A stretch of 64,000 bases of DNA, taken from Oscillospiraceae bacterium (lineage in GTDB: Bacteria > Bacillota > Clostridia > Oscillospirales > Ruminococcaceae). The position numbers and the translations under genes were made by a program. The notes under the pieces are model-generated. The model was not told where the DNA came from. It searched no databases and saw only the letters and a program-made list of their open reading frames with translations. The stretch is from positions 62,001 through 126,000 of the forward strand of contig WRLG01000005.1 in NCBI GenBank assembly GCA_009777725.1, read 5' to 3'. Shown here one piece after another: positions 46,336 through 62,312 of this stretch. How positions within the stretch are numbered: position 1 is the first letter of the stretch; each line of letters opens with the position of its first letter.

Positions 46336-49300
46336 ATGATGACTAAATCATTTAAATTGCGAGCATTGTCCGCGGCGGTTGCGGTTGCCGTGTTATTTTC
46401 GGCGGCGGTTCAATATAAATTTACTACGGTATGGGCGGATGATGACGGCACTGACAACGGCATGGGTTCATCTTTTGAAGAAAACAGCGGCGGAACTGAG
46501 GGTAGCGGTGAGGAAATTAACGAAGAAAAAACTAACGGCGAGGAAAACAGCGGTGAAGAATTCGGCGAAACGCAGGATTCTTCAACGTCTATCACGTCTT
46601 TATCAAGTGAGTTTGGTATTTTAGATAACGACAATGAAATTATTTTGAACGAAGTACAAGACGGAGACAGCGGAAACGATTGGAGTGTATTAGGTGGAAT
46701 TATTACTATTTCAAACCCTAGCGGTCTTAGGATTACAGGGACTACTGATAAGGGTATTAAAATTGACAGTGATGTTTATGGTGCTAGTATTATTTTAGAT
46801 GATGCTATTATTAATTCTTCGGGAGTACCGGGAATTGAAATCAATGTGGTTGCAAGAAATTTTGAGCTTATTCTGGTTGGGGATTCTGTGGTTTCCTCTG
46901 ATTCAGATGCGGGGATTCAAGTTAGTGGCGGGTTCGGATCCTACCTTGCAATAGAAGAAGAAGAAAGAGGAAGTCTGAGAGCGAGTGGCGGCGGAGGCGG
47001 AGCGGGAATTGGTGTTTTGGGGACAATAATTAGGATAAACGGAGGAACAGTCATAGCGAACGGTTCAGGAAGCGGTGCGGGAATAGGAGCATCCGGGAGT
47101 GGTTTGGTTGAAATAAACGGCGGTGACGTAACAGCGACAGGCGGCTTGGGCGGAGGTGCGGGAATCGGGCAGTTAAGTGCTACCGATGATGTGGTTGTTA
47201 GAATTACTGGTGGGATGGTAAAGGCAACGGGCGGTGGAGACGGTGCGGGAATTGAAAGTAAAAACTCAATCCAACTGTACCGCTGGAACAATAGCGACCC
47301 CTACCCCGCTGTATACACTTCCTCTTTAGTAGTGCATAGTGGGGAAGAGTTGGAAGGTAACCACAAAGGAATCTTAGAAGGAATCTTATTTATAGGAAAC
47401 AAAGGAACGCTTTACGGTGAGTATAATGGGTATACAGTAGATGATTTAAACTGGTTGGACTTTAGTTTTCTCTCGCATACATATTCTTCATACATTTTGG
47501 AAATACCTATGAATTTACACTTGACAGTTGAAGCCGGAGAAACATTAGTAATTCCGAGCAATTTAACTGTAAGAAATTACGGAACTATTGATGTTTTAGG
47601 AATAATAGACAACCAAGGAAATATAGAAAACTACGGAGTTATTGACATCACACCACCGGGCGAAATTAAAGGCAAAGCGGTAGAAAGCGGCGGTTGGTAC
47701 TATGCTATGGTAGCAGAGTTAGAAGAAACAGGTTATGGTGGAGAGTACGGAACACTAACTATACAAAATAACGTCGGCATGGAGGATTGGCGTGTTAACG
47801 GAAGACAAATGATGATTGATGCGGGCATGGCAGATGAAGTAGACCGTGTTATAATCGAAAGCGATGTAATAAATTCCACGGGAAATCCGTTTGCAGGAGG
47901 TTTCGATAACATTGCCAGAGTTACCTTTATGCACACTTCGCCACCATTCAGTAATAATTTTTCAGCATTTTTTAACGGTCTAAGCAATTTATGTGTTATA
48001 CAAGCACCGAACGCAACGAATATAAACAACTGGAATTTTGACAACGTGAACGGCGTGACATTCCATAGCGTAAAATACAGCACTATAGGCGGCGGAAAAA
48101 TTGACGAAGCAAGAATCACTTATATGGAGGTAGACGGCAACCAAGCCCCGAACGGTGCAATGGGTTTGCTCGGAACTAACAGCTTTATCAGAAGCGGGGA
48201 CATAATGCGGTTTAGCGTTCACGCCCTGCCCGATGCAGGTTCGGTGGTTTTAGCTTGGAGAAACGGGGAGAAGGGGTTTAGTAACGCAACCCCCGGAGTA
48301 TTCATAGAAAATGATTTTGACAACAACGGTAGTATGGAATACAAAGTTACTCGGATTAGCTTTGAATTCGGCGATGAATATGAAGATTTTAACGAAGACT
48401 TTGACCTGATAGTTGAATTTTCACTTGACCCAAATGTTACCGATACAATCGAAACAGGCGGCAACTCGGCTGTAATTCCAAATGCAGAAGCAGTTATTGA
48501 TATTGACATCGGCACAGTGGTTATGACGGAGGAGGGCGCGGAAACAATCTATGCGGGTAACATATTCAGCTTGACCCTTAATATTGAAGATGAATCGGGT
48601 ATATCAAACGTAAGCGACTTGCTCGACTTTTTAGGTGACGAAAATTTAGCGGCGGAATTTATAGAGGAAGTTCAAAACCATATTGAAGCAAACAAATTTA
48701 ATTCAGAAGAAGCTGTAGCTTTGGGCTTTGATATTTCACTGCTTTTACACGTTGGTTATGACAGCAACAACCCTGACGGAGGGCATGACGTTAAAGTTAT
48801 TGACATGGAAGGCGGCATGATTGCGGCGACTTTTGCGATTCCTCCCGAACTGGCGAACTGCGACCTAATGTTTTTCGGGGTTCATAAAAATGCCGCAGGC
48901 GAGACGGAACTGCTGAAATTTACCATAGGCGAAAATATGTTTATTAATAATGACGGCACGCTCACGCTTCATTTGAGCCAATTTTCCAATTACTTCCTTA
49001 TGGGAACACCCAAGGCAAAGCCCGTAGGACCCGGACCTTTGGTGATTGACGGCGGCAACAACAGCAGAAGCAGAGGACCTTCAAGGACAGTTGTGACTAA
49101 TACCGAAAGCCTTAACACACTCGACAACGAAAGCAATGAGCTTGAACAAGATGAGCAAGGAGACGAAACGGAGGAGACAGGGCTTACCGAGGAAAACAAC
49201 CTAACCGTTGAAAGCCCCGTACCGCTCCCGCCACCACCACCGCCTACATCTTCAAACCATAACCTCCCCTCCGCACCAACGACTACAAGCGGCAACGGCG

Positions 49301-49680
49301 GAAACAGCGTTTCAACGGCGGGAAGCTCCGCTCCGTCACGCACGAGGCAAGCGGCGGATACAAGTGAAGAAAACCGCACCCCTGGCGGCGCATACACGGA
49401 CGGGGGAGCAGACGGCGGCTTAGGCTTAGACGAACAAGGCAACCCCGACACCAACACTTCCGCCGACACTTCGGGCGATACCTATTACGCCGAAGCCAAC
49501 TCGGAAGGCACGGGCTCAACCGAGGCGGCGGGTACGGCAGTTTCACCCGTAGCAGGCAGAGAGGGCACGAAGTCAGCGAACACGAATGTCCCCCTAGCTG
49601 TTGCGGCGGTCGCCGGAACAGCGGCAGTCGGCGGCGGCGCGGCGTTTGCTGTAAAGGGTTTGAGGGTGAAATTTAAATAA
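46336..49680 (+). CDS. Surface protein paralog 1: signal peptide, Gly-rich repeat domain, acidic/polyPro stalk, C-terminal TM anchor
   Basis: Signal FSAAVQYKFTTVWA-DD; INGGTVIANGSGSGAGIGASGSG repeats (DUF4353/carbohydrate-binding-like); PLPPPPPPTSSN; VPLAVAAVAGTAAVGGGAAFAVKGLRVKFK end. Confidence 0.8.
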   Translation: MMTKSFKLRALSAAVAVAVLFSAAVQYKFTTVWADDDGTDNGMGSSFEENSGGTEGSGEEINEEKTNGEENSGEEFGETQDSSTSITSLSSEFGILDNDNEIILNEVQDGDSGNDWSVLGGIITISNPSGLRITGTTDKGIKIDSDVYGASIILDDAIINSSGVPGIEINVVARNFELILVGDSVVSSDSDAGIQVSGGFGSYLAIEEEERGSLRASGGGGGAGIGVLGTIIRINGGTVIANGSGSGAGIGASGSGLVEINGGDVTATGGLGGGAGIGQLSATDDVVVRITGGMVKATGGGDGAGIESKNSIQLYRWNNSDPYPAVYTSSLVVHSGEELEGNHKGILEGILFIGNKGTLYGEYNGYTVDDLNWLDFSFLSHTYSSYILEIPMNLHLTVEAGETLVIPSNLTVRNYGTIDVLGIIDNQGNIENYGVIDITPPGEIKGKAVESGGWYYAMVAELEETGYGGEYGTLTIQNNVGMEDWRVNGRQMMIDAGMADEVDRVIIESDVINSTGNPFAGGFDNIARVTFMHTSPPFSNNFSAFFNGLSNLCVIQAPNATNINNWNFDNVNGVTFHSVKYSTIGGGKIDEARITYMEVDGNQAPNGAMGLLGTNSFIRSGDIMRFSVHALPDAGSVVLAWRNGEKGFSNATPGVFIENDFDNNGSMEYKVTRISFEFGDEYEDFNEDFDLIVEFSLDPNVTDTIETGGNSAVIPNAEAVIDIDIGTVVMTEEGAETIYAGNIFSLTLNIEDESGISNVSDLLDFLGDENLAAEFIEEVQNHIEANKFNSEEAVALGFDISLLLHVGYDSNNPDGGHDVKVIDMEGGMIAATFAIPPELANCDLMFFGVHKNAAGETELLKFTIGENMFINNDGTLTLHLSQFSNYFLMGTPKAKPVGPGPLVIDGGNNSRSRGPSRTVVTNTESLNTLDNESNELEQDEQGDETEETGLTEENNLTVESPVPLPPPPPPTSSNHNLPSAPTTTSGNGGNSVSTAGSSAPSRTRQAADTSEENRTPGGAYTDGGADGGLGLDEQGNPDTNTSADTSGDTYYAEANSEGTGSTEAAGTAVSPVAGREGTKSANTNVPLAVAAVAGTAAVGGGAAFAVKGLRVKFK

Positions 49681-49692
49681 GGAGGAATTGAT

Positions 49693-52600
49693 ATGATGAC
49701 TAAATCATTTAAATTGCGCGCATTGTCCGTGGCTGTCGCTGCCGCTGTGTTTTTTTCGGCGGCGGTTCAATATAAATTTACTACGGTATGGGCGGATGAT
49801 GACGGCACAGATAACGGCACGGGTTCATCTTTTGAAGAAAACGGCGGCGGAACTGAGGGTAGCGGCGAGGAAATTAACGAAGAAAAAACTAACGGTGAGG
49901 AAAACAGCGGCGAAGAATTCGGCGAAACGCAGGATTCTTCAACGTCTATCACGTCTTTATCAAGTGAGTTTGTCCGATTAGATTCCGGCTATGTGATTGA
50001 TTTGGACGAAATAGAAGATGACGATGAAGAACCGGGCTTTTGGCAGGAATCGGGCGGAGTTATCACTATTTCAGCCAACGACAGGTATACGATTACAGGG
50101 AGTGCAAACAAGAGAATTATAGTTAATACTAGTGCTGATATTACTTTAGATAATGCTACTATTAATTCCTCAAACGGAGCAGGTATTGAAATCGGTGCGG
50201 GTTCAACCGTTGCGCTTAAATTGGTCGGAACATCTGCGGTTTCATCTAGCTCATCAGCGGGAATTCAAGTTAACGGTACAAAGCTTACGATTAGCGGAGG
50301 CGGAAGTTTGACAGCGCGTGGCGGCGGAAGCGGCGCGGGAATCGCTGGCGGTTCTGGTAGCTCAACTATTGAAATAGTCGGCGGAACAATCACCGCGAAC
50401 GGTTCGGGCGGCGGCGCAGGAATCGGAGCGTCGAATAACAGCGGTTCTACAAATGTTGTAATAAGCGGCGGTAACGTAACGGCAACAGGCGGCGGCGGCG
50501 GCGCAGGAATCGGTAACGGTAAAACCAGTAACGGTGCTGTAAATGTAACGATTACAGGCGGCAATGTTTCAGCAACCGGTTCGGGTAACGCTTCGGGAAT
50601 CGGAAGAGGCGATGACATGGGAAACGGAAACCAAACTGCCGGTAGTAACCGTAGAATAGAAATTAGCGGAGGTACTGTTTTCGCAAGCGTTAACCAGCCC
50701 AGCAGTGGGGGCGGCTCATACCCGGCGATAGGCGGGGTGAGCTTTGCTGTTAACATTGCGGGCGGCAACGTAACAGCAAGGGGCAGAGGAAGTGCTGCTT
50801 CGGCGATACAAGGCAATGATGTTACTATTAACGGAGGTCTTGTTAATGCAAGTATCCAAGCTGTCAGCAATAATGCCAGTGCAATAGGAATCAGAAGCAA
50901 CAATCCTATAGTAATGAACGGCAATGCTGTTATATACACAAACTCTATAAGCACGTTAAGCACTGCACCTGACCTCAAAGGAATCTTGTTTGAAGGAAGC
51001 AACGGAACGCTTTACGGTGGGGTTGAAATAGATGGTGAGTTGGGCTTTGGCTCTCCCACTAGTGCACGCACTTTAATAATACCTATGGGTCGTTGGTTGC
51101 AAATTCCCGATGGAGAGACTTTAGAGATTCCGAGCAACTTAACTGTAAAGAATTACGGAACAATCCATGTTGAGGGAACAATAAACAACTTGGGAACTAT
51201 AGAAAACTACGGGGCTATTAACGGCAACATTATAGGCAACCCGGTAAAACAGGGCGGCTGGAACTATGTTTGGGACGATGAAAGCGGAAACGACATATAC
51301 GGAATACTGACGATACAAAATAATGACGGCATGACGGATTGGATTAATATCGGAAGCGAAATGTTAGCCAATACCCGCATACAACAAGAAGATGGACTAC
51401 TATACCATGTTACAATCGGAAGCGGTGTAACGAATTTAACAGGAACTCCGTTTGCGGATTTCGGCGAAATTACAAGAATTACCTTTATGCACAATTCACA
51501 GCCGCAAGCTGATTTTTCAGAGCTTTTTGACGGCTTAGACAATTTGTGCGTTATACAAGCCCCGAACGCAACCAATATAAACAGCTGGGATTTTAACGTA
51601 AACGGCATGACATTCCATAGCGTAAAATACAACGAGATAGGCAACGGAAAAATTGACTATGCCAGAATAACTTGGATAGAGGTGGACGGCGTAGCCGTTG
51701 AGGGTGCAGGTCCTTTTGTATCTAACAGCTTTATCAGAAGCGGCGGTGTAATGCGTTTTAGTATTTACTCTGTACCTGATAGTAATGCGGTAGTTTTGGG
51801 TTGGAGAAACAATGGGAAGGGAATGGTTGCTAAATCAAATACCGGGGTGCAGATAGAATTGGGTGACGGTACAGTAATAGAGGAAGGGGCTACCCGAGTT
51901 AGCTTTGAATTCGGCGATGAATTTGACGATTTTACCGAAGATTTTGACATAACGGTTGAATTTTCACTTGACCCAAATGTTACCGATACAATCGAAACAG
52001 GCGGCAGCTCGGCGGTAATGTCAAACACGCAAGCACTCGCTGATTTTGACATTAACTCAGCCATTATAACAGAGGACGGAGCGGGGACGATAGGGGTATG
52101 GAACAGATTCAGCTTGAACCTTACCATTGAAGATGAAGCGGGTATATCAAACACAGAGGAATTACTTGACTTTTTAGGGGACGAAAATTTAGCGGCGGAA
52201 TTTATAGAGGAAGTTCAAGACCATATCGAAGCAAACAAATTTGATTCAGAAGAAACGGTAGCTTTGGGCTTCGATATTTCACTGCTCATATACGATGACG
52301 ACCAAGGCGATGATGTAAAAATCATAGACATGGGAGACGGCATGATTGCGGCGACCTTTGCGCTCCCTCCCGAATTGGTGGGTAAAGACCTTATGTTTTT
52401 CGGGGTTCACCAAAATGCCAACGGCGAGACGGAACTGCTGAAATTTACCGCGGGTCAAAATATGCTGATTAACAATGACGGCACAATAACGGTTTATTTG
52501 AGCCAATTTTCAAACTTTTTCCTTATGGGAACACCTAAATCAAAGCCCGTAGGACCTGGACCGTTGGTGATTGACGGCAACAGCGGCGGCAACAACAGCA

Positions 52601-53223
52601 GAAGCAGAGGACCTTCAAGGACGGTTGTGACTAATACCGAAAGCCTCAACACACTCGACAACCAAAGCGATGAGCCGGAACAAGGCGAGCAAGGAGACGA
52701 AACGGAGGAAACAGGGCTTACCGAGGAAAACAACCTAACCGTTGAAAGCACCCCGCCCCCGCCGCCACCTCCACCCCCGCCCCCGCCTACATCTCCAAAC
52801 CATAACCTCCCCTCCGCACCAACGACTACAAGCGGCAACGGCGGAAACAGCGTTTCAACCGCGGGAAGTTCCGCTCCGTCACGCACGAGGCAAGCGGCGG
52901 ATACAAGTGAAGAAACCCGCACCCCCGGCGGCGCAGACACGGACGGCGGCGCAGACAACGGCTTAGACTTAGACGAACAAGGCAACCCCGACACCGACAC
53001 TTCCGCCGATACTTCGGGCGATACCTATTACGCCGAAGCCAACTCGGAAGGCACGGGCTCGACCGAGGCGGCGGGTACGGCAGTTTCACCCGTAGCAGGC
53101 AGAGAGGGCACGAAGTCAGCGAACACGAATGTTCCCTTAGCTGTTGCGGCGGTCGCCGGAACAGCGGCAGTCGGCGGCGGCGCGGCGTTTGCTGTGAAGG
53201 GTTTGAGGGTGAAATTTAAATAA
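49693..53223 (+). CDS. Surface protein paralog 2
   Basis: N- and C-termini near-identical to paralog 1; ISGGNVTATGGGGGAGIGNG repeats; 12-bp gap to paralog 1 so probably co-transcribed. Confidence 0.8.
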   Translation: MMTKSFKLRALSVAVAAAVFFSAAVQYKFTTVWADDDGTDNGTGSSFEENGGGTEGSGEEINEEKTNGEENSGEEFGETQDSSTSITSLSSEFVRLDSGYVIDLDEIEDDDEEPGFWQESGGVITISANDRYTITGSANKRIIVNTSADITLDNATINSSNGAGIEIGAGSTVALKLVGTSAVSSSSSAGIQVNGTKLTISGGGSLTARGGGSGAGIAGGSGSSTIEIVGGTITANGSGGGAGIGASNNSGSTNVVISGGNVTATGGGGGAGIGNGKTSNGAVNVTITGGNVSATGSGNASGIGRGDDMGNGNQTAGSNRRIEISGGTVFASVNQPSSGGGSYPAIGGVSFAVNIAGGNVTARGRGSAASAIQGNDVTINGGLVNASIQAVSNNASAIGIRSNNPIVMNGNAVIYTNSISTLSTAPDLKGILFEGSNGTLYGGVEIDGELGFGSPTSARTLIIPMGRWLQIPDGETLEIPSNLTVKNYGTIHVEGTINNLGTIENYGAINGNIIGNPVKQGGWNYVWDDESGNDIYGILTIQNNDGMTDWINIGSEMLANTRIQQEDGLLYHVTIGSGVTNLTGTPFADFGEITRITFMHNSQPQADFSELFDGLDNLCVIQAPNATNINSWDFNVNGMTFHSVKYNEIGNGKIDYARITWIEVDGVAVEGAGPFVSNSFIRSGGVMRFSIYSVPDSNAVVLGWRNNGKGMVAKSNTGVQIELGDGTVIEEGATRVSFEFGDEFDDFTEDFDITVEFSLDPNVTDTIETGGSSAVMSNTQALADFDINSAIITEDGAGTIGVWNRFSLNLTIEDEAGISNTEELLDFLGDENLAAEFIEEVQDHIEANKFDSEETVALGFDISLLIYDDDQGDDVKIIDMGDGMIAATFALPPELVGKDLMFFGVHQNANGETELLKFTAGQNMLINNDGTITVYLSQFSNFFLMGTPKSKPVGPGPLVIDGNSGGNNSRSRGPSRTVVTNTESLNTLDNQSDEPEQGEQGDETEETGLTEENNLTVESTPPPPPPPPPPPPTSPNHNLPSAPTTTSGNGGNSVSTAGSSAPSRTRQAADTSEETRTPGGADTDGGADNGLDLDEQGNPDTDTSADTSGDTYYAEANSEGTGSTEAAGTAVSPVAGREGTKSANTNVPLAVAAVAGTAAVGGGAAFAVKGLRVKFK

Positions 53224-53273: not shown

Positions 53274-53302
53274 TTGACAGCCCTTAAATTATAAGCTATA
53301 AT
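53274..53302 (+). promoter_or_regulatory. Consensus SigA promoter for rpn copy 1
   Basis: ttgaca-N17-tataat. Confidence 0.8.
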
Positions 53303-53332
53303 AAAATTACAACAACCGAAAGGAAGATAAAC

Positions 53333-54169
53333 ATGCCCCGAAACGCCGTAATATTAAAGCTGGACGTAATATTCAAAAAAGCCTTTACAGAGCATGATGA
53401 AATGCTGAGGGGCTTGCTTTGCGGTCTGTTACAGGTTGAGGCTGTTGAGAATATAAAAATTCGCAATTCCGAGATTGTCCCCGATGGGATAGACGGAAAA
53501 TTTGTCCGAATGGATTTGAATTTGGAGGCGGACGGCAAGTTAATCAATGTTGAAATGCAGTACCGCGTTGATTCGGATTTTAAGGATAGGGCACTTTTCC
53601 ATTGGTCGAAACTTTACGGCGGAGAGCTGAAAAGCGGCGAGGATTACAGGAAGCTAAAGCCGAGCATCTGCATAAATATCGTGAATTTTAACCTGTTTGA
53701 CTGCTCCGACTATCATTCGTGCTTTAAGGTTATGGAAGAGGAGCGTCATGAGGTTTTGTCGGATAAGTGCGAAATTCACTTTTTTGAGCTTAAAAAAATC
53801 GGGAAAAGCATAAATAAGGATGACAAGGTTCGTCTTTGGTTGCAACTAATCAATGCAGAAACGGAGGAGGAGTTGGATATGTTAGAGCAAACGGGGGTAC
53901 TTCCCATTCAGAATGCAGTGCGCGTGGTTCGTGATATGAGCGAGGACACGAGAATCCGCGAAGCTGCCCGTATCCGCGAAAAAGCCATGCACGATGAAGC
54001 TTCGGCGATGAATTCGGCTAGGCGGGAGGGGGTTGAGCAGGGGATTCGGCAGGGGATTCAACAGGGACTTCAGCAAGGGGTTCGGCAGGGGAGACAGCAA
54101 ATGCTTGACAAGCTTAGGGAGTTGGGTATTTCCGAGGAAATAATTGGTAAAATCGAGGGACAAACATAG
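53333..54169 (+). CDS. Rpn-family PD-(D/E)XK nuclease (RpnL-like), copy 1
   Basis: LKLDVIFKKAFTEHDEMLRGLLCGLL; FVRMDLNLEADGKLINVEMQYR nuclease core (D...ExQ); C-term QGI/QQGL repeats then LDKLRELGISEEIIGKI. Confidence 0.85.
   Translation: MPRNAVILKLDVIFKKAFTEHDEMLRGLLCGLLQVEAVENIKIRNSEIVPDGIDGKFVRMDLNLEADGKLINVEMQYRVDSDFKDRALFHWSKLYGGELKSGEDYRKLKPSICINIVNFNLFDCSDYHSCFKVMEEERHEVLSDKCEIHFFELKKIGKSINKDDKVRLWLQLINAETEEELDMLEQTGVLPIQNAVRVVRDMSEDTRIREAARIREKAMHDEASAMNSARREGVEQGIRQGIQQGLQQGVRQGRQQMLDKLRELGISEEIIGKIEGQT
53879..54169 (+). CDS. Candidate internal in-frame ORF (RpnS-like antitoxin) within rpn copy 1, 96 aa
   Basis: ggaggagg at 53863-53870, 8-nt spacing to ATG 53879; C-terminal repeat-containing domain. 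Confidence 0.5.
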   Translation: MLEQTGVLPIQNAVRVVRDMSEDTRIREAARIREKAMHDEASAMNSARREGVEQGIRQGIQQGLQQGVRQGRQQMLDKLRELGISEEIIGKIEGQT

Positions 54170-54281: not shown

Positions 54282-54337
54282 AATAAGAGCTAAATATGTG
54301 TAATTATTGTAAGAATTACAATGAGGGGGAATGTGCT

Positions 54338-57300
54338 ATGTTATTGATTAAGAAGATTAAAATAGGGAAACATCGTATATTATCGGTGGCGGTGGCGTTC
54401 GCGCTTTTGCTTTCGGTGACGGTTCAGTATTCTCCTTTTCTGTTCTTCGCCTATTCTTATGACGGCGGCGACGGGGGCGATTATTACGATGGCGGTGATG
54501 ACGGCACAGATAACGACTTAGGCGGCGGCACGGGTTCGGAGGGGCTGACTACCGAGGAAGAGGTTAGTTTCGGGGCTTCTGATGATTCTTCCTCTACTAC
54601 CAATCAAGTTGACCTAAGTTACCTAAGCACAGTCGGTTATGACATAACCGACTTAATAGGAGGCTGGAGCTTTAACAATACTTCCGGCGAGGTTACTATT
54701 TTAAATGGTGCTAATGTTATGATTACGGGTACGGCTTCTAATGCTCTGCGCGTTGTGGTGGCTTCGGGCGCAACGGCAAAAATTACTTTGAACAACGCAA
54801 AAATTACTCCGGCGGTAGGATCGGGTATTGAGCTTATGGGCGGTGCAAATGTTGCTATGAGCTTGGTTGGGGAATCAACTGTTTCTTCAAGCAGTCACTC
54901 GGGTATACAAATGAGACCCTACGCATCACCAACAACAAAGCTTGTAATTGACGGAAGCGACGGAGGCGGAAAGCTTATTGCGAATGGCGGAAGCGGCGGC
55001 GCAGGTATTGGGTGCTACAGCGGCGCATCGGGAATGGGTATTGATATTGAAATAAAAGGCGGGATTATTGAAGCGACAGGCGGCTCAGGCGGAGGCTCGG
55101 GAATCGGAAGTGCTTCCAACGGGGGCACGGGAATGGATATTAAAGTTTCCGGGGGCGTCGTAACCGCTAAAGGAAACGGTGCTAATAGCGCAGGAGTAGG
55201 CGGCGGTGTCGTTGGCGGGACGATTACTGTTACGGACGGTTATGTTAATGCCGGGCAGGTTGACAATAGTATTTCTTCCGGTCCCGGTCAAGGTATAGGA
55301 GGTCGTAGTGCGAGTCAAAAGGCTTTTGATATTAATATAAGCGGCGGCACGGTAGTGGCTGTCGGTAGCACTTTAGGCAGTGGGATATTGGGGAAAAATG
55401 TTAATATAAGCGGCGGTGCTGTTACTGCTCTGGGTGCTAGCGGAATTTCCTACGAAGAATTTATAATGGACGGCAATGTTGTTATATATGCCAAAAGTAC
55501 CAGCTTTGATACGTCGACCCCGGGGGGTTCAAATGACGGGGAGATTAAAGGTATCATATTTAAGCAACTTTCTACATCGCTTTATCAAGGGGCGGTTTAT
55601 GGTGATGTGACTTTGGAGGTGAGCGAATTAACAATAGAGTTACCCAACGGGGAGAGCGGAACTTTATATATACAATCCGACTCGTCATTAACCATTCCGA
55701 ACAGAGCTACTTTAACCATTCCGAGCAATATCACGGTAACTAACAACGGAACGCTTACGGTTAACGGAACTTTGACCAATAACGGAGCAATTGATAATAG
55801 CTCAACAGGAATAATAAACGGAAACGGCGCAATAAACGGAAACGGTACAATAAAGGGTAATCCGCCCCAGAGTGGTGTAACTGTTGCAAATACCATTAGT
55901 ATGGTTGAAAGTGATTTGAGCTTTGACGAAACAACAGGGACACTTCAAATCAATACAGTCGCCGGAATGACAGAATGGTGGAATACGGGCAAAGGGGGTT
56001 GGTTGGAGCTCTACCATAATTTAGGAATTGAGCATGTGAAAGAAGTGATATTGGGCAGTGGCGTAAGTGCTTTGCCGAACGGTACATTTGATGGGTGTAT
56101 TGAGCTTGAAAGAATAACTTTTCTTCACACGACATTGCCAAGCGGCAATATGGCAGCCTTGGGAACGGGTATACCAAGCTTGGTATTAATCCACACGCCC
56201 AATATAGACCCGCTTGTCGCATCTTTTGGAAATGACTTTGTAAACATACGCTTTGAGCAAACACAGGGCGGCACATTGACGGCATATTGCACTTGGACAG
56301 GAGGCAGCACAATATCTATTGATTCTAACACTTTTGTAAGAAAAATTCATGAAGGTAAAGTAGGCTACGTAGGCTTTCCTGCAGAATTTGAGGCGGGTTT
56401 GCATTTTAAGGGCTTTAAAAATCATGATACCGTGTTAACGCATGATGGAAATGACGTATTTGTAGATGTATGGGCTGATTTGAATTCGGCAAGACTTGAA
56501 ATTTTAATAGGAACACCTCAAAATATACCCGGATTTGTAAATAACAACTTTATCAAAATAACGGCTGAATTTTCGGACACCGCAAATATTCAAACAGAGA
56601 TTGAAACCGAGGGTAATTCCGAAAAAATCACTAACCCGGATGCGAGCATTGAAATTGACCTCGGCACTTCCGTGACTACGGAGGGCGGGAATTCGGTTAC
56701 GATTGATATGAGCAATATATTCAGCTTAGTCCTTAATATTGACGATGAGGACGGAATATCAACGGTAAACGAATTGATTGACTTTTTAGAGGGCACGACT
56801 TCGGCGACCGAGTTTGTGGACGATGTGAAAAAGCATATCGCGACAAACGGCTTCAGCTCAAACCAAACAGTTGTTTTGGGATTTGATATTTCCCTGCTGT
56901 TATCCGATGAGCAAGGCAACGGCATTAAAATCATAGACTTGGGCGACGGCATGGTTGCGGCTACGTTTGCTCTGCCTTCCGAATTGGCGGGTAAGGATAT
57001 ACTGTTCTTGGGCGTTCACAAAAACAGCGCGGGCGGGAATGAATTGCTGAAATTTACCACGGGTGTAAATTTGTTCACAAACAGTGACGGCACGATAACG
57101 CTCCATATGAGTAAATTTTCCAACTTCTTCCTCATGGGCGCACCAAAGGCAAGACCCGCCGCGCCCGGACCGATGGTGGTTGACGGCGGCAGCAGCAGAG
57201 GCAGAAGCGGCGCGTCCAGAACCGTTGTTGCGAACAGCCCTACGAGCACCGACTTAACCGAAACCGAAAACACCGAAACGGAAGAAATTGAAAATACAGA

Positions 57301-57817
57301 CGGCACAGATGAGGAAAACGGGCTCACGGAAGAAAGCGGCTTAACTGTTGAAAATTCAACTACACCCCCGCCGCCACCTCCTCCGCCACCTCCTACGACT
57401 TCAAGCAATAACTTCCCCTCCGCACCGACTACAGGCAGGAATCAGCCATCCTCCGGCAACAGCAGTTCCTCCTCAGAGGGAAGCTCCGCTCCGTCAAGAA
57501 CGCGGACAACAAGCTCCGATGAACCGTCAAGCCCTTCCACCGAAGAAGAAGTGACGGGCGGCTTAGATGAGCAGGGCGGTTCTGACATTCCCGAGGGCAA
57601 TTCGGACGTTTACTACGCTGAGGGAATTGCGGAATCGACCGACACGGCAATTGCGGCAGTTGATACAAACGCAGTTTCACCCGCAGCAGGCACAGAGGGC
57701 ACGAAGCCTACGAGCAATACAGTTCCCATAGCTGCCGCGGCGGCAGTCGGAACAGTAGCAGTCGGCGGCGGCGCGGCGTTTGCTGTAAGAGGGATAAGGA
57801 TTAGGAAGCTGAAATAA
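54338..57817 (+). CDS. Surface protein paralog 3
   Basis: Signal peptide; Gly-rich repeats; single LRR_5-like LPNGTFDGCIELERITFLH; PPPPPPPPPPTTSS; C-term TM and RGIRIRKLK; ATG 54338 after agggggaatgtgct. Confidence 0.8.
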   Translation: MLLIKKIKIGKHRILSVAVAFALLLSVTVQYSPFLFFAYSYDGGDGGDYYDGGDDGTDNDLGGGTGSEGLTTEEEVSFGASDDSSSTTNQVDLSYLSTVGYDITDLIGGWSFNNTSGEVTILNGANVMITGTASNALRVVVASGATAKITLNNAKITPAVGSGIELMGGANVAMSLVGESTVSSSSHSGIQMRPYASPTTKLVIDGSDGGGKLIANGGSGGAGIGCYSGASGMGIDIEIKGGIIEATGGSGGGSGIGSASNGGTGMDIKVSGGVVTAKGNGANSAGVGGGVVGGTITVTDGYVNAGQVDNSISSGPGQGIGGRSASQKAFDINISGGTVVAVGSTLGSGILGKNVNISGGAVTALGASGISYEEFIMDGNVVIYAKSTSFDTSTPGGSNDGEIKGIIFKQLSTSLYQGAVYGDVTLEVSELTIELPNGESGTLYIQSDSSLTIPNRATLTIPSNITVTNNGTLTVNGTLTNNGAIDNSSTGIINGNGAINGNGTIKGNPPQSGVTVANTISMVESDLSFDETTGTLQINTVAGMTEWWNTGKGGWLELYHNLGIEHVKEVILGSGVSALPNGTFDGCIELERITFLHTTLPSGNMAALGTGIPSLVLIHTPNIDPLVASFGNDFVNIRFEQTQGGTLTAYCTWTGGSTISIDSNTFVRKIHEGKVGYVGFPAEFEAGLHFKGFKNHDTVLTHDGNDVFVDVWADLNSARLEILIGTPQNIPGFVNNNFIKITAEFSDTANIQTEIETEGNSEKITNPDASIEIDLGTSVTTEGGNSVTIDMSNIFSLVLNIDDEDGISTVNELIDFLEGTTSATEFVDDVKKHIATNGFSSNQTVVLGFDISLLLSDEQGNGIKIIDLGDGMVAATFALPSELAGKDILFLGVHKNSAGGNELLKFTTGVNLFTNSDGTITLHMSKFSNFFLMGAPKARPAAPGPMVVDGGSSRGRSGASRTVVANSPTSTDLTETENTETEEIENTDGTDEENGLTEESGLTVENSTTPPPPPPPPPPTTSSNNFPSAPTTGRNQPSSGNSSSSSEGSSAPSRTRTTSSDEPSSPSTEEEVTGGLDEQGGSDIPEGNSDVYYAEGIAESTDTAIAAVDTNAVSPAAGTEGTKPTSNTVPIAAAAAVGTVAVGGGAAFAVRGIRIRKLK

Positions 57818-57877: not shown

Positions 57878-57906
57878 TTGACAACCCTTAAATTATAAGC
57901 TATAAT
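57878..57906 (+). promoter_or_regulatory. Consensus SigA promoter for rpn copy 2
   Basis: ttgaca-N17-tataat, same context as copy 1. Confidence 0.8.
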
Positions 57907-57937: not shown

Positions 57938-58798
57938 ATGCCCCGAAACGCCGTAATATTAAAGCTGGACGTAATATTCAAAAAAGCCTTTACAGAGCAT
58001 GATGAAATGCTGAGGGGTTTGCTTTGCGGTCTGTTACAGGTTGAGGCTGTTGAAAATATAAAAATTCGCAATTCCGAGATTGTCCCCGATGGGATAGACG
58101 GGAAATTTGTCCGAATGGATTTGAATTTGGAGGCGGACGGCAAGCTGATTAATGTTGAAATGCAGTACCGCGTTGATTCGGATTTTAAGGATAGGGCACT
58201 TTTCCATTGGTCGAAACTTTACGGCGGAGAGCTGAAAAGCGGCGAGGATTACAGGAAGCTAAAGCCGAGCATCTGCATAAATATCGTGAACTTTAACCTG
58301 TTTGACTGCTCCGACTATCATTCGTGCTTTAAGGTTATGGAAGAGGAACGTCATGAGGTTTTGTCGGATAAGTGCGAAATTCACTTTTTTGAGCTTAAAA
58401 AAATCGGGAAAAGCATAAACAAAGATGACAAGGTTCGTCTTTGGTTGCAACTAATCAATGCAGAAACGGAGGAGGAGTTGGATATGTTAGAGCAAACGGG
58501 GGTACTTCCCATTCAAAATGCAGTGCGCGTGGTTCGCGATATGAGCGAGGATACGAGAATCCGCGAAGCCGCCCGTATCCGCGAAAAAGCCATGCACGAT
58601 GAAGCTTCGGCGATGAATTCAGCAAGGCGGGAGGGGGTTGAGCAGGGGATTCGGCAGGGGATTCAACAGGGACTTCAGCAGGGACTTCAGCAAGGGGTTC
58701 AGCAAGGGGTTCAGCAGGGGAGACAGCAAATGCTTGACAAGCTTAGGGAGTTGGGTATTTCCGAGGAAATAATTGGTAAAATTGAGGGGCAGGCATAG
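57938..58798 (+). CDS. Rpn-family PD-(D/E)XK nuclease (RpnL-like), copy 2
   Basis: Near-identical to 53333-54169 apart from two extra 12-nt repeat units. Confidence 0.85.
   Translation: MPRNAVILKLDVIFKKAFTEHDEMLRGLLCGLLQVEAVENIKIRNSEIVPDGIDGKFVRMDLNLEADGKLINVEMQYRVDSDFKDRALFHWSKLYGGELKSGEDYRKLKPSICINIVNFNLFDCSDYHSCFKVMEEERHEVLSDKCEIHFFELKKIGKSINKDDKVRLWLQLINAETEEELDMLEQTGVLPIQNAVRVVRDMSEDTRIREAARIREKAMHDEASAMNSARREGVEQGIRQGIQQGLQQGLQQGVQQGVQQGRQQMLDKLRELGISEEIIGKIEGQA
58484..58798 (+). CDS. Candidate internal in-frame ORF (RpnS-like antitoxin) within rpn copy 2, 104 aa
   Basis: ggaggagg at 58468-58475, 8-nt spacing to ATG 58484. Confidence 0.5.
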   Translation: MLEQTGVLPIQNAVRVVRDMSEDTRIREAARIREKAMHDEASAMNSARREGVEQGIRQGIQQGLQQGLQQGVQQGVQQGRQQMLDKLRELGISEEIIGKIEGQA

Positions 58799-58914: not shown

Positions 58915-58970
58915 ATAGTATCTAAATACGTGTAATTATTGTAAGAATCAGAATGAGGGGGGAATGTGCT

Positions 58971-61900
58971 ATGTTATTTATTAAGAAGATTAAATCTAAA
59001 AAACATCGTATATTATCGGTGGCGGTGGCGTCCGCACTTTTGTTTTCGGTTGCGGTTCAATTTTCTCCTTTTTTGTCTTTTGCTGACCCTTTTGACGAGG
59101 GCGGCGGTAGCTATGGGGAATGTGATTGCTACTATTATTACTACGATGACGAACACGACCCGGATTGCCCGGTCGGGTTGGGTTTAGGTGAATGGGGTGG
59201 CTTAGGTGATTTGGGCGACTTGGGTGAAGAAGATAGCATGTCCGCCTTTGGTGGGGTCGGGTTTGCGGCTACTTCGGCTTCTTTAACCGAAACACAAATA
59301 GACCTAAGTGAATTAAGCTCAAATGTCTCATTCGATAATTGGAGCTATAATTCAAGTACAGGCGTGGTGAATATTCACAAGGGCAGTGTTGTAATTACAG
59401 GAATTGCTCAAACAGGCACATATATTCAAGTTGCCGGGCTAGGCGAATCGGCAAACATTACTTTGAGAAATGCGACAATTAATGGGGGTAGCAACCCTGC
59501 AATTTCTATCAACGTATCTGCCTCAGCGACAATTGTGTCAGAAGGAGTAAACACGTTAACAAGCAGTCACGCTAACGGCGTAATAAATATAGCTGACGTG
59601 TCCTTTCTAACAATTGAAGGGTACGGAGCTTTGACTGTTAAGAATAACGGTAGCGGTCACGGCATAAGAAGCGGGGAAAGAATAACAATAAAAAGCGGCG
59701 AAGTTAATATAGAAGCCGGCTCGAGTGGTGTAGGGATTTTAGGCAATGACTTTCCGGGCACTGAAATAAGGATACAGGGCGGGACTGTTACCGCGCGGGG
59801 CAATGCTACAGCCGGTGGTGTCGGTATTACAGGTTATAATGTTAACATAACCGGCGGAGTGGTTACTGCTAAGGGTTCATCCTCAGACCTTTTGGGAATA
59901 CAATGCCATTCATTTAGCATGAACGGAAATGCTGTTGTATATCTTTCCGGCAACGGAGATGGGCTGGGAGCAGGAAGCGGGTCGGGACCCAACTATGCCA
60001 GTGGAATTTTATTTAATAACAACCAAGGAACAGTTTACGGTGATGTGGCTTTAGGGCGAGTAACTGCGGACTATTTTGTGGACAATTTTAAGTTTGATGT
60101 TGTGAGCGGTGACGGTACTTTAACTATACTTGACGGTGCAACTTTAACAATACCTCTTGATTTAGAATTAGAGGTTCAGCAGGGGTTTGAAATTATAAAC
60201 CGTGGAAATTTTATGGTTTTAGGGACAATTGACTTAAGCGGCACTATAACCAATCATTCGGAAAACATGATTGTTAATGGGACAATAATGGGAACGGGAG
60301 ACTTGTTTAATCATGGGACTATTAACGGGAACGGTACAATATCTGATGACATTGATTATTTCGGCTTAGGAGAGAACAATTTGCCGGGGGCAGTTGACCC
60401 AACTTACAGTGATTGGAATTTTGACAATGGCGTTCTTACAATCAATGACCAAGACGCGATGGACAATTGGCAAGCAGAATGGAATGTCAAGTATGGTCCG
60501 ATATTAACTGAACCATTAAAAAGTGATATAACAAGCGTTGTTGTTGCTGGTGATGTGGGCAACATACCGAATGATGCCTTTGCAGGTTGCACGAATATTG
60601 AAGAAATAACTTTTCTTCATGCAACGGAGCTTCAAGATGTACTCAGCAATATTACCGCCGTCACTTCCGGCTCGAACTTGCGATTTGCGTATGTGCCTAA
60701 TTTGACTGACTTTAGCGATGTAAGCCCTGCTTTCTATGCTCATGGTTATGTTTACTTTGACTTTGATAACAGCAAAATAACCGCAACTGCTCATGGCAAA
60801 GAAGTCGCGCCTAAAACTTTTGTAAGAGCGATGGGCAGTTCTGCAATTGTATTTAAAGTGACTGACACGGAAGCTCTGACTTGGAAAAATAACGAAACTG
60901 TAATTCCGGCAGGCTCCGGCAGAGAAATGACATATGACCCGGATACAGAAACCGCAACGCTTGAAATTGATTTAAACACCGCAACAATCAGTGCGATACA
61001 AGGAACTTCACCCGCCCAAACACTTAACATCACTGTTGAAGTTGATTTGACGGGGACTGTGGTTACGGAAGATGTGACCACCGAAAACAACTCATCTATT
61101 ACCACTACCGATGAAAGCATTGAAATTGAGCTTGGCTCTACCGTGACCTTGTCAAACGGGGAAACTGTTGTAATTGACGCGAGCAATATATACAGCTTGG
61201 TTCTTACGATTGACGATGAAAACGGCGTATCTACGACAAATGAGTTAATCGGCTTTTTAGAGGCAACGGAATCGGCGGAATTTATGGACGATTTGAAAAA
61301 GCATATCGCGACTGAAACAGAGGGGCGCAGTAATGACAAAGAAACCGTTGTTTTAGGGCTTGATATTTCCCTGCTCTTAACGGACGGTATTGATGACATA
61401 AAAATAATTGACCTGGGCGATGGCTTGGTCGCGGCTACGTTTGCTCTGCCTTCGGAATTGGCGGGCATGGATATACTGTTCTTGGGAATCCATAAAAACA
61501 GCGCGGGCGGTACTGAATTGCTGAAATTTACCACGGGTGTAAATATGTTTGAGAATGGTGACGGCACGATAACGCTCCATATGAGTAAATTCTCTAACTT
61601 CTTCCTCATGGGCTCGCCCAAGGCAAAACCCGCGCCCGGACCGATGATAATTGACGGTAGCAGCAATAACAGCGGCGGCAACAGCAGAGGCAGAGGCGGC
61701 ACGGCTTCATCCAGAACCGTTATTGCGGATAGCCCTGCGAATACCCACCACGAAACCGAAAACACCGACACGGAAGAAATTGAGAATACAGACGGCTTTG
61801 AAGAGGAAAACGGGCTCACGGAAGAAAGCGGCTTAACTGTTGAAAATTCAACTACACCCCCGCCTCCTCCGCCGCCGCCACCTCCTACATCTTCAAGCGA

Positions 61901-62312
61901 CAACTTTCCCACCGCGCCGACTATAGGCGGGAATCTACCCTCAGCCAGCAACAGCAGTTCTTCATCAGAGGGAAGCTCCGCTCCGTCAAGAACGCGGACA
62001 ACAAGCTCCAATGAAACTTCAAGCTCTTCTTCCAATGAAGAAGCGGGCGGATTAGATGAGCAGGAGCAGAGTAGCACTGACATTTCCGAGGACGATTCGG
62101 ACGATGTTTACTACGCCGAGGGGATTGCGGATGTTCCCAACCCAATCGCCGCGGCAAGCGCGCACGCAGTTTCACCCGTAGCGGGCAGAGAAGGCACGAG
62201 GTCGATGAATACTACCATTCCCATGGCTGCCGCGGCGGCGGTCGGAGTAGTAGCAGTCGGCGGCGGCACGGCGTTTGTTATACGGGGGATAAAGGTTAAA
62301 AAACTGAAATAA
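58971..62312 (+). CDS. Surface protein paralog 4
   Basis: Same architecture; VGNIPNDAFAGCTNIEEITFLHAT; PPPPPPPPPPTSSS; IPMAAAAAVGVVAVGGGTAFVIRGIKVKKLK. Confidence 0.8.
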   Translation: MLFIKKIKSKKHRILSVAVASALLFSVAVQFSPFLSFADPFDEGGGSYGECDCYYYYYDDEHDPDCPVGLGLGEWGGLGDLGDLGEEDSMSAFGGVGFAATSASLTETQIDLSELSSNVSFDNWSYNSSTGVVNIHKGSVVITGIAQTGTYIQVAGLGESANITLRNATINGGSNPAISINVSASATIVSEGVNTLTSSHANGVINIADVSFLTIEGYGALTVKNNGSGHGIRSGERITIKSGEVNIEAGSSGVGILGNDFPGTEIRIQGGTVTARGNATAGGVGITGYNVNITGGVVTAKGSSSDLLGIQCHSFSMNGNAVVYLSGNGDGLGAGSGSGPNYASGILFNNNQGTVYGDVALGRVTADYFVDNFKFDVVSGDGTLTILDGATLTIPLDLELEVQQGFEIINRGNFMVLGTIDLSGTITNHSENMIVNGTIMGTGDLFNHGTINGNGTISDDIDYFGLGENNLPGAVDPTYSDWNFDNGVLTINDQDAMDNWQAEWNVKYGPILTEPLKSDITSVVVAGDVGNIPNDAFAGCTNIEEITFLHATELQDVLSNITAVTSGSNLRFAYVPNLTDFSDVSPAFYAHGYVYFDFDNSKITATAHGKEVAPKTFVRAMGSSAIVFKVTDTEALTWKNNETVIPAGSGREMTYDPDTETATLEIDLNTATISAIQGTSPAQTLNITVEVDLTGTVVTEDVTTENNSSITTTDESIEIELGSTVTLSNGETVVIDASNIYSLVLTIDDENGVSTTNELIGFLEATESAEFMDDLKKHIATETEGRSNDKETVVLGLDISLLLTDGIDDIKIIDLGDGLVAATFALPSELAGMDILFLGIHKNSAGGTELLKFTTGVNMFENGDGTITLHMSKFSNFFLMGSPKAKPAPGPMIIDGSSNNSGGNSRGRGGTASSRTVIADSPANTHHETENTDTEEIENTDGFEEENGLTEESGLTVENSTTPPPPPPPPPPTSSSDNFPTAPTIGGNLPSASNSSSSSEGSSAPSRTRTTSSNETSSSSSNEEAGGLDEQEQSSTDISEDDSDDVYYAEGIADVPNPIAAASAHAVSPVAGREGTRSMNTTIPMAAAAAVGVVAVGGGTAFVIRGIKVKKLK

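Follow-up and report, generated by a model that had tools for sequence, protein, structure and literature searches.

The 64,000-nucleotide stretch of Oscillospiraceae DNA analysed here (the window) contains, at 53333–54169, an open reading frame of 278 aa that a sequence-only reading had assigned to the Rpn-family PD-(D/E)XK nucleases. Profile scores bear this assignment out. The product matches PF12784 (PDDEXK_2) with E = 1.5e-42 over residues 9–229, and also TIGR01784 ('Rpn family recombination-promoting nuclease') at 5e-37, the scores of 146 and 128 bits exceeding curated cut-offs of 27 and 52 respectively. Residues D61, E74 and Q76 are invariant in 79/79 relatives that cover these positions; they are the putative PD-(D/E)XK catalytic residues, assigned by motif and not by a structure match, and as such are intact. 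A consensus promoter precedes the gene, and similar promoters stand before many of its paralogues. A second copy of the gene lies further downstream in the window; the features of both copies are collected in Table 1.

Table 1. Features of the two rpn copies in the window.
Feature	Position	Strand	Remarks
Sigma-A promoter, copy 1, consensus TTGACA-N17-TATAAT, 12/12	53274..53302	+	
RBS of the full-length gene, copy 1, AAGGAAG	53320..53326	+	
rpnL copy 1, PDDEXK_2 / Rpn-family nuclease, 278 aa	53333..54169	+	Profile matches; model pLDDT 88
Internal Shine-Dalgarno (SD), copy 1, GGAGGAGG, encoded by codons GAG GAG GAG	53863..53870	+	
Nested rpnS copy 1, predicted 96-aa C-terminal product from internal ATG (codon 183)	53879..54169	+	SD/start selection; free-standing homologues begin at the same Met
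Six four-residue repeats inside predicted long helix 206–263	54023..54094	+	Residues 231–254
Promoter, copy 2, TTGACA-N17-TATAAT	57878..57906	+	
rpnL copy 2, 286 aa	57938..58798	+	
Internal Shine-Dalgarno, copy 2, GGAGGAGG	58468..58475	+	
Nested rpnS copy 2, predicted 104 aa, eight tetrads, ATG 58484	58484..58798	+	

The same reading had proposed that a second protein is started within copy 1, and its description of the site was exact: GGAGGAGG at 53863–53870 is followed, after a gap of 8 nt, by an in-frame ATG (53879–53881) from which a C-terminal product of 96 aa would be made. The repeats in this tail are the six tetrads REGV EQGI RQGI QQGL QQGV RQGR. When copy 1 is considered alone, the nested SD is not significant in a synonymous shuffle (p = 0.49), as the gene is rich in GAG codons and encodes EEE at the motif. 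The same result would be obtained if the SD-like sequence were a by-product of a conserved acidic motif, TEEEL[DE]M, with no internal product at all, as an EEE coded by GAG yields an SD motif automatically. The evidence for the nested start, as we read it from the alignments, is evidence from the family and not from this single gene.

Host-genome paralogues were aligned with relatives from other genomes, and anti-SD pairing was scored before every start codon, with a strong SD defined as dG<=-9. Within a non-redundant set of 34 genes (<80% identity), 31 have a strong SD before an ATG or GTG at reference codons 180–193; equivalent windows elsewhere in the same genes contain a strong SD with a start in 0–2 of the 34. 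When only genes with a start in the slot are counted, a strong SD is observed in 31/32 compared with 9.4 ± 2.4 under synonymous-codon shuffles within each gene, in which the maximum was 18 and 0/2000 reached 31. The codon for E179 is GAG rather than GAA in a ratio of 40:1 when ATG or GTG follows at 183, and of 5:13 when it is absent (p = 2.7e-8, and p = 0.009 once relatives above 80% identity are removed; relatedness among the genes makes such p-values rough). In a per-column test of synonymous conservation across all homologues, E179 ranks third or lower because genes with and without the start are mixed, and the conditional test is the informative one. Both the joint shuffle and the fact that codon choice tracks the presence of the ATG, within the same protein motif and the same genome, argue against a by-product of the acidic motif.

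The position of the nested start provides a further line of evidence. Most genes have it at codon 183, those of subfamily B in the host genome at 192 (EVEEM, GGAGGT) and those of Paenibacillus at 185–186 (WEVLKM, GGGAGGT). Each of the shifted starts (183, 185, 186, 192), which are seen in Oscillospiraceae and Paenibacillus, has its own SD at a workable distance. The SD therefore moves with the start and is encoded by other residues in Paenibacillus and subfamily B, contrary to the expectation for a by-product, and the shifting positions can be taken as several separate confirmations of the nested start. A start at or near the same slot is found in Chitinispirillales, Priestia, Metabacillus (where it is TTG) and on a Klebsiella plasmid. 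Across Bacillaceae plasmids, the Klebsiella plasmid, a phage-labelled scaffold and a phylum-wide sample, the place is mostly equivalent, in some cases with a weaker SD. As a positive control, the scan ranks first M244 of RpnA, the E. coli start proved by mutation, and it also picks M244 of RpnB, M241/242 of RpnC and M244 of RpnE; free-standing ypaA begins at the place equivalent to RpnA M244. Six copies of subfamily C in the host genome (two in L019, and one each in L022, L023, L025 and L028) have no nested SD-ATG at the usual place. The phage-labelled scaffold is of faecal origin, and its Rpn gene (L091; MT835532.1, 3684–4373) is 51% identical and has a nested start; a scan of viral contigs with two subfamilies found no relatives.

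The nested reading frame also occurs on its own. At one locus in the host genome (L046, G000:C38), the upstream part of subfamily-D nuclease genes (promoter, leader and RBS) runs straight into the internal ATG, and from this arrangement we read the locus as a start-to-start deletion of a nuclease gene. Another host locus (L043, G000:C7) has a TTGCCA-N17-TATAAT-like promoter and GGAGGT ahead of its start, which is at the codon-192 site of its subfamily. Outside the host genome, two loci combine a nuclease gene with a free-standing tail: in L059 the tail starts at 183 and lies immediately after the nuclease gene; in L057 it is coupled, starts at 192 and closely overlaps the nuclease stop (TGATTATG). 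In L096 (1468–3330), two copies without the nuclease part come after a full-length rpn; both retain the nested ORF, and tetrad numbers differ. Dead nucleases with the nested SD, ATG and tail intact are present at two host loci, one interrupted by TAG (L034, G000:C6) and the other by frame breaks (L041, G000:C10), although some nuclease breaks could in principle be assembly errors. Free tails and dead-nuclease relics would be expected of a protective product that outlives its toxin.

These comparisons show that selection acts on the nested SD-start, that the SD is displaced together with the start, and that the unit so delimited is also found as free-standing genes. Because these genes begin at the nested site, and in view of the shuffles and the moving SD, we consider it very improbable that the SD is a by-product of the acidic motif. 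The design that had been proposed for this locus, a nuclease gene with a separately started C-terminal product that holds variable four-residue repeats, is strongly supported by the family-wide selected SD-ATG, by a start that moves with its SD, by free-standing C-terminal genes and by nuclease-dead copies that retain the nested ORF; the gene-within-gene RpnL/RpnS design is therefore very likely real here.

In the structural model of copy 1, the nuclease core extends to residue ~185 and is followed by a helix at 190–204, a long helix at 206–263 that carries the repeats, and a terminal helix, so that the nested start is predicted to fall at the hinge between core and tail. Comparison of the tail and full-length models with the PDB gave no significant structural match, and PADLOC returned only a weak match between the tail and a model named 'putative invertase'. 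At the sequence level, the family profile finds RpnA_S (crystal 7th0) through its tail region (E = 3.4e-4).

We envisage that full-length RpnL, with its PD-(D/E)XK core (residues ~1–185) and helical tail, would be made from the consensus promoter, and that a second ribosome entry at codon 183 would make the 96-aa RpnS, consisting of a short helix, the long repeat helix and the terminal helix. Using its repeat helix, RpnS would bind the tail of RpnL, which is identical to it, and keep the nuclease from acting; release, perhaps upon phage infection, would free the enzyme. The number of repeats would set which RpnS fits which RpnL, and copies 1 and 2, with 6 and 8 tetrads, would therefore be separate specificities. 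That the long product is toxic, the short product its antitoxin and the pair anti-phage we infer from Zhong et al. (2023; PMC10327210), and it is by the same analogy that RpnS is presumed to be made in vivo, to pair with RpnL and inhibit it, and that toxicity and defence are presumed here.

A short product might, alternatively, be made and support the nuclease structurally or activate it, as an assembly subunit comparable to Cas11d inside Cas10d, instead of being an antitoxin. The predicted long-helix tail would suit oligomerisation, and an activator cannot be told from an inhibitor by sequence. However, the E. coli homologues of this RpnS act as inhibitors of RpnL (PMC10327210), and the persistence of nuclease-dead copies and free tails is easier to explain by an antitoxin that protects against sibling toxins. 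A partner role is thus improbable in our judgement, and we interpret the locus, with good confidence, as an Rpn-type intragenic toxin-antitoxin gene (RpnL/RpnS).

The known systems closest to the locus are RpnA-E and RpnP2 of E. coli, which are RpnL-RpnS intragenic toxin-antitoxin systems (Zhong et al., 2023; PMC10327210). As in E. coli, a PD-(D/E)XK nuclease is combined with an in-frame internal SD-ATG and a C-terminal product with variable four-residue repeats, solo RpnS genes of the ypaA type occur, and the tail is homologous to that in the RpnA_S crystal. The N-domain differs, being PF12784 here and Transposase_31 (PF04754) in E. coli Rpn, and the predicted RpnS is 96–104 aa long here versus about 50–60 in E. 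coli. In all examples of Zhong et al. (PMC10327210) the repeats lie 8–20 residues past the internal start, whereas in copy 1 they begin 48 residues past it; the predicted RpnS is therefore roughly twice the length of RpnA_S. Starts nearer the repeats (codons 202, 219 and 226), which would bring the spacing nearer to the published values, have no conserved SD, and a strong SD with ATG or GTG at codons 208–230 was found in 0/34 non-redundant homologues. Transcription also starts inside the rpn genes of E. coli, whereas copy 1 is without a convincing internal promoter, the best site within it scoring 9/12, inside shuffle noise. A C. difficile rpn, likewise a Gram-positive gene with an internal start, which was shown by mutation on expression in E. 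coli (PMC10327210), may already be of the long-RpnS kind. By profile score the gene is a full member of TIGR01784 and PF12784; the descriptions of these families do not mention a nested start, and one subfamily of the host genome is without it.

Copies 1 and 2, when codon-aligned, differ by 18 synonymous and 2 non-synonymous changes plus a 24-nt tetrad insertion. Their promoter-to-stop block is markedly more alike than the adjoining coding DNA, and the cassette was therefore probably copied or homogenised recently. The host genome (2.77 Mb, 49 contigs) carries fragments and about 40 full-length Rpn copies, which fall into at least four subfamilies, and tetrad number varies across the paralogues. 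A same-genus relative has no Rpn copies at the cut-offs used. Any Rpn copy at all is present in 26/149 sampled genomes of the family, the host included, the most elsewhere being 9; 26 rpn copies have been described in one B. thuringiensis (PMC10327210).

Copy number of this order, the database names and the likeness of the promoter-to-stop block over its flanks are what might be expected of a mobile-element nuclease (a putative transposase) whose tail is a multimerisation domain only. This explanation leaves the selected nested start and the free-standing tails unaccounted for. Moreover, tetrad number differs between copies, the cores are under purifying selection, as the ratio of synonymous to non-synonymous changes given above indicates, and rpn genes were without terminal repeats or target duplications in Zhong et al. 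(PMC10327210). We find it scarcely credible.

Returning to the RpnL/RpnS reading, we tentatively propose, as a suggestion that could well fall either way, that the antitoxin of the PF12784 branch is a longer form (about 80–120 aa) started at the nuclease hinge, and that the ~40 Rpn pairs of one genome, with their several start positions and with solo antitoxins generated by start-to-start deletion, constitute a repertoire of nucleases and immunity proteins with many specificities, diversified through repeat number. The analysis provides computational evidence, independent of E. coli, for Rpn genes with two products throughout the PDDEXK_2 branch, whose annotation still reads 'putative transposase'. 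It fixes the position of the nested start in this branch and points to a natural origin for free-standing antitoxins and dead-nuclease relics. A genome with ~40 copies would also be well suited to studying how antitoxin specificity depends on repeat number.

Four tandem genes (46336–49680, 49693–53223, 54296–57817 and 58953–62312) encode very large proteins of 1114–1176 aa, for which a Pfam search gave no match; in those that were read, stretches rich in proline occur and the C-terminus is hydrophobic and basic. Both rpn copies are placed between members of this array.
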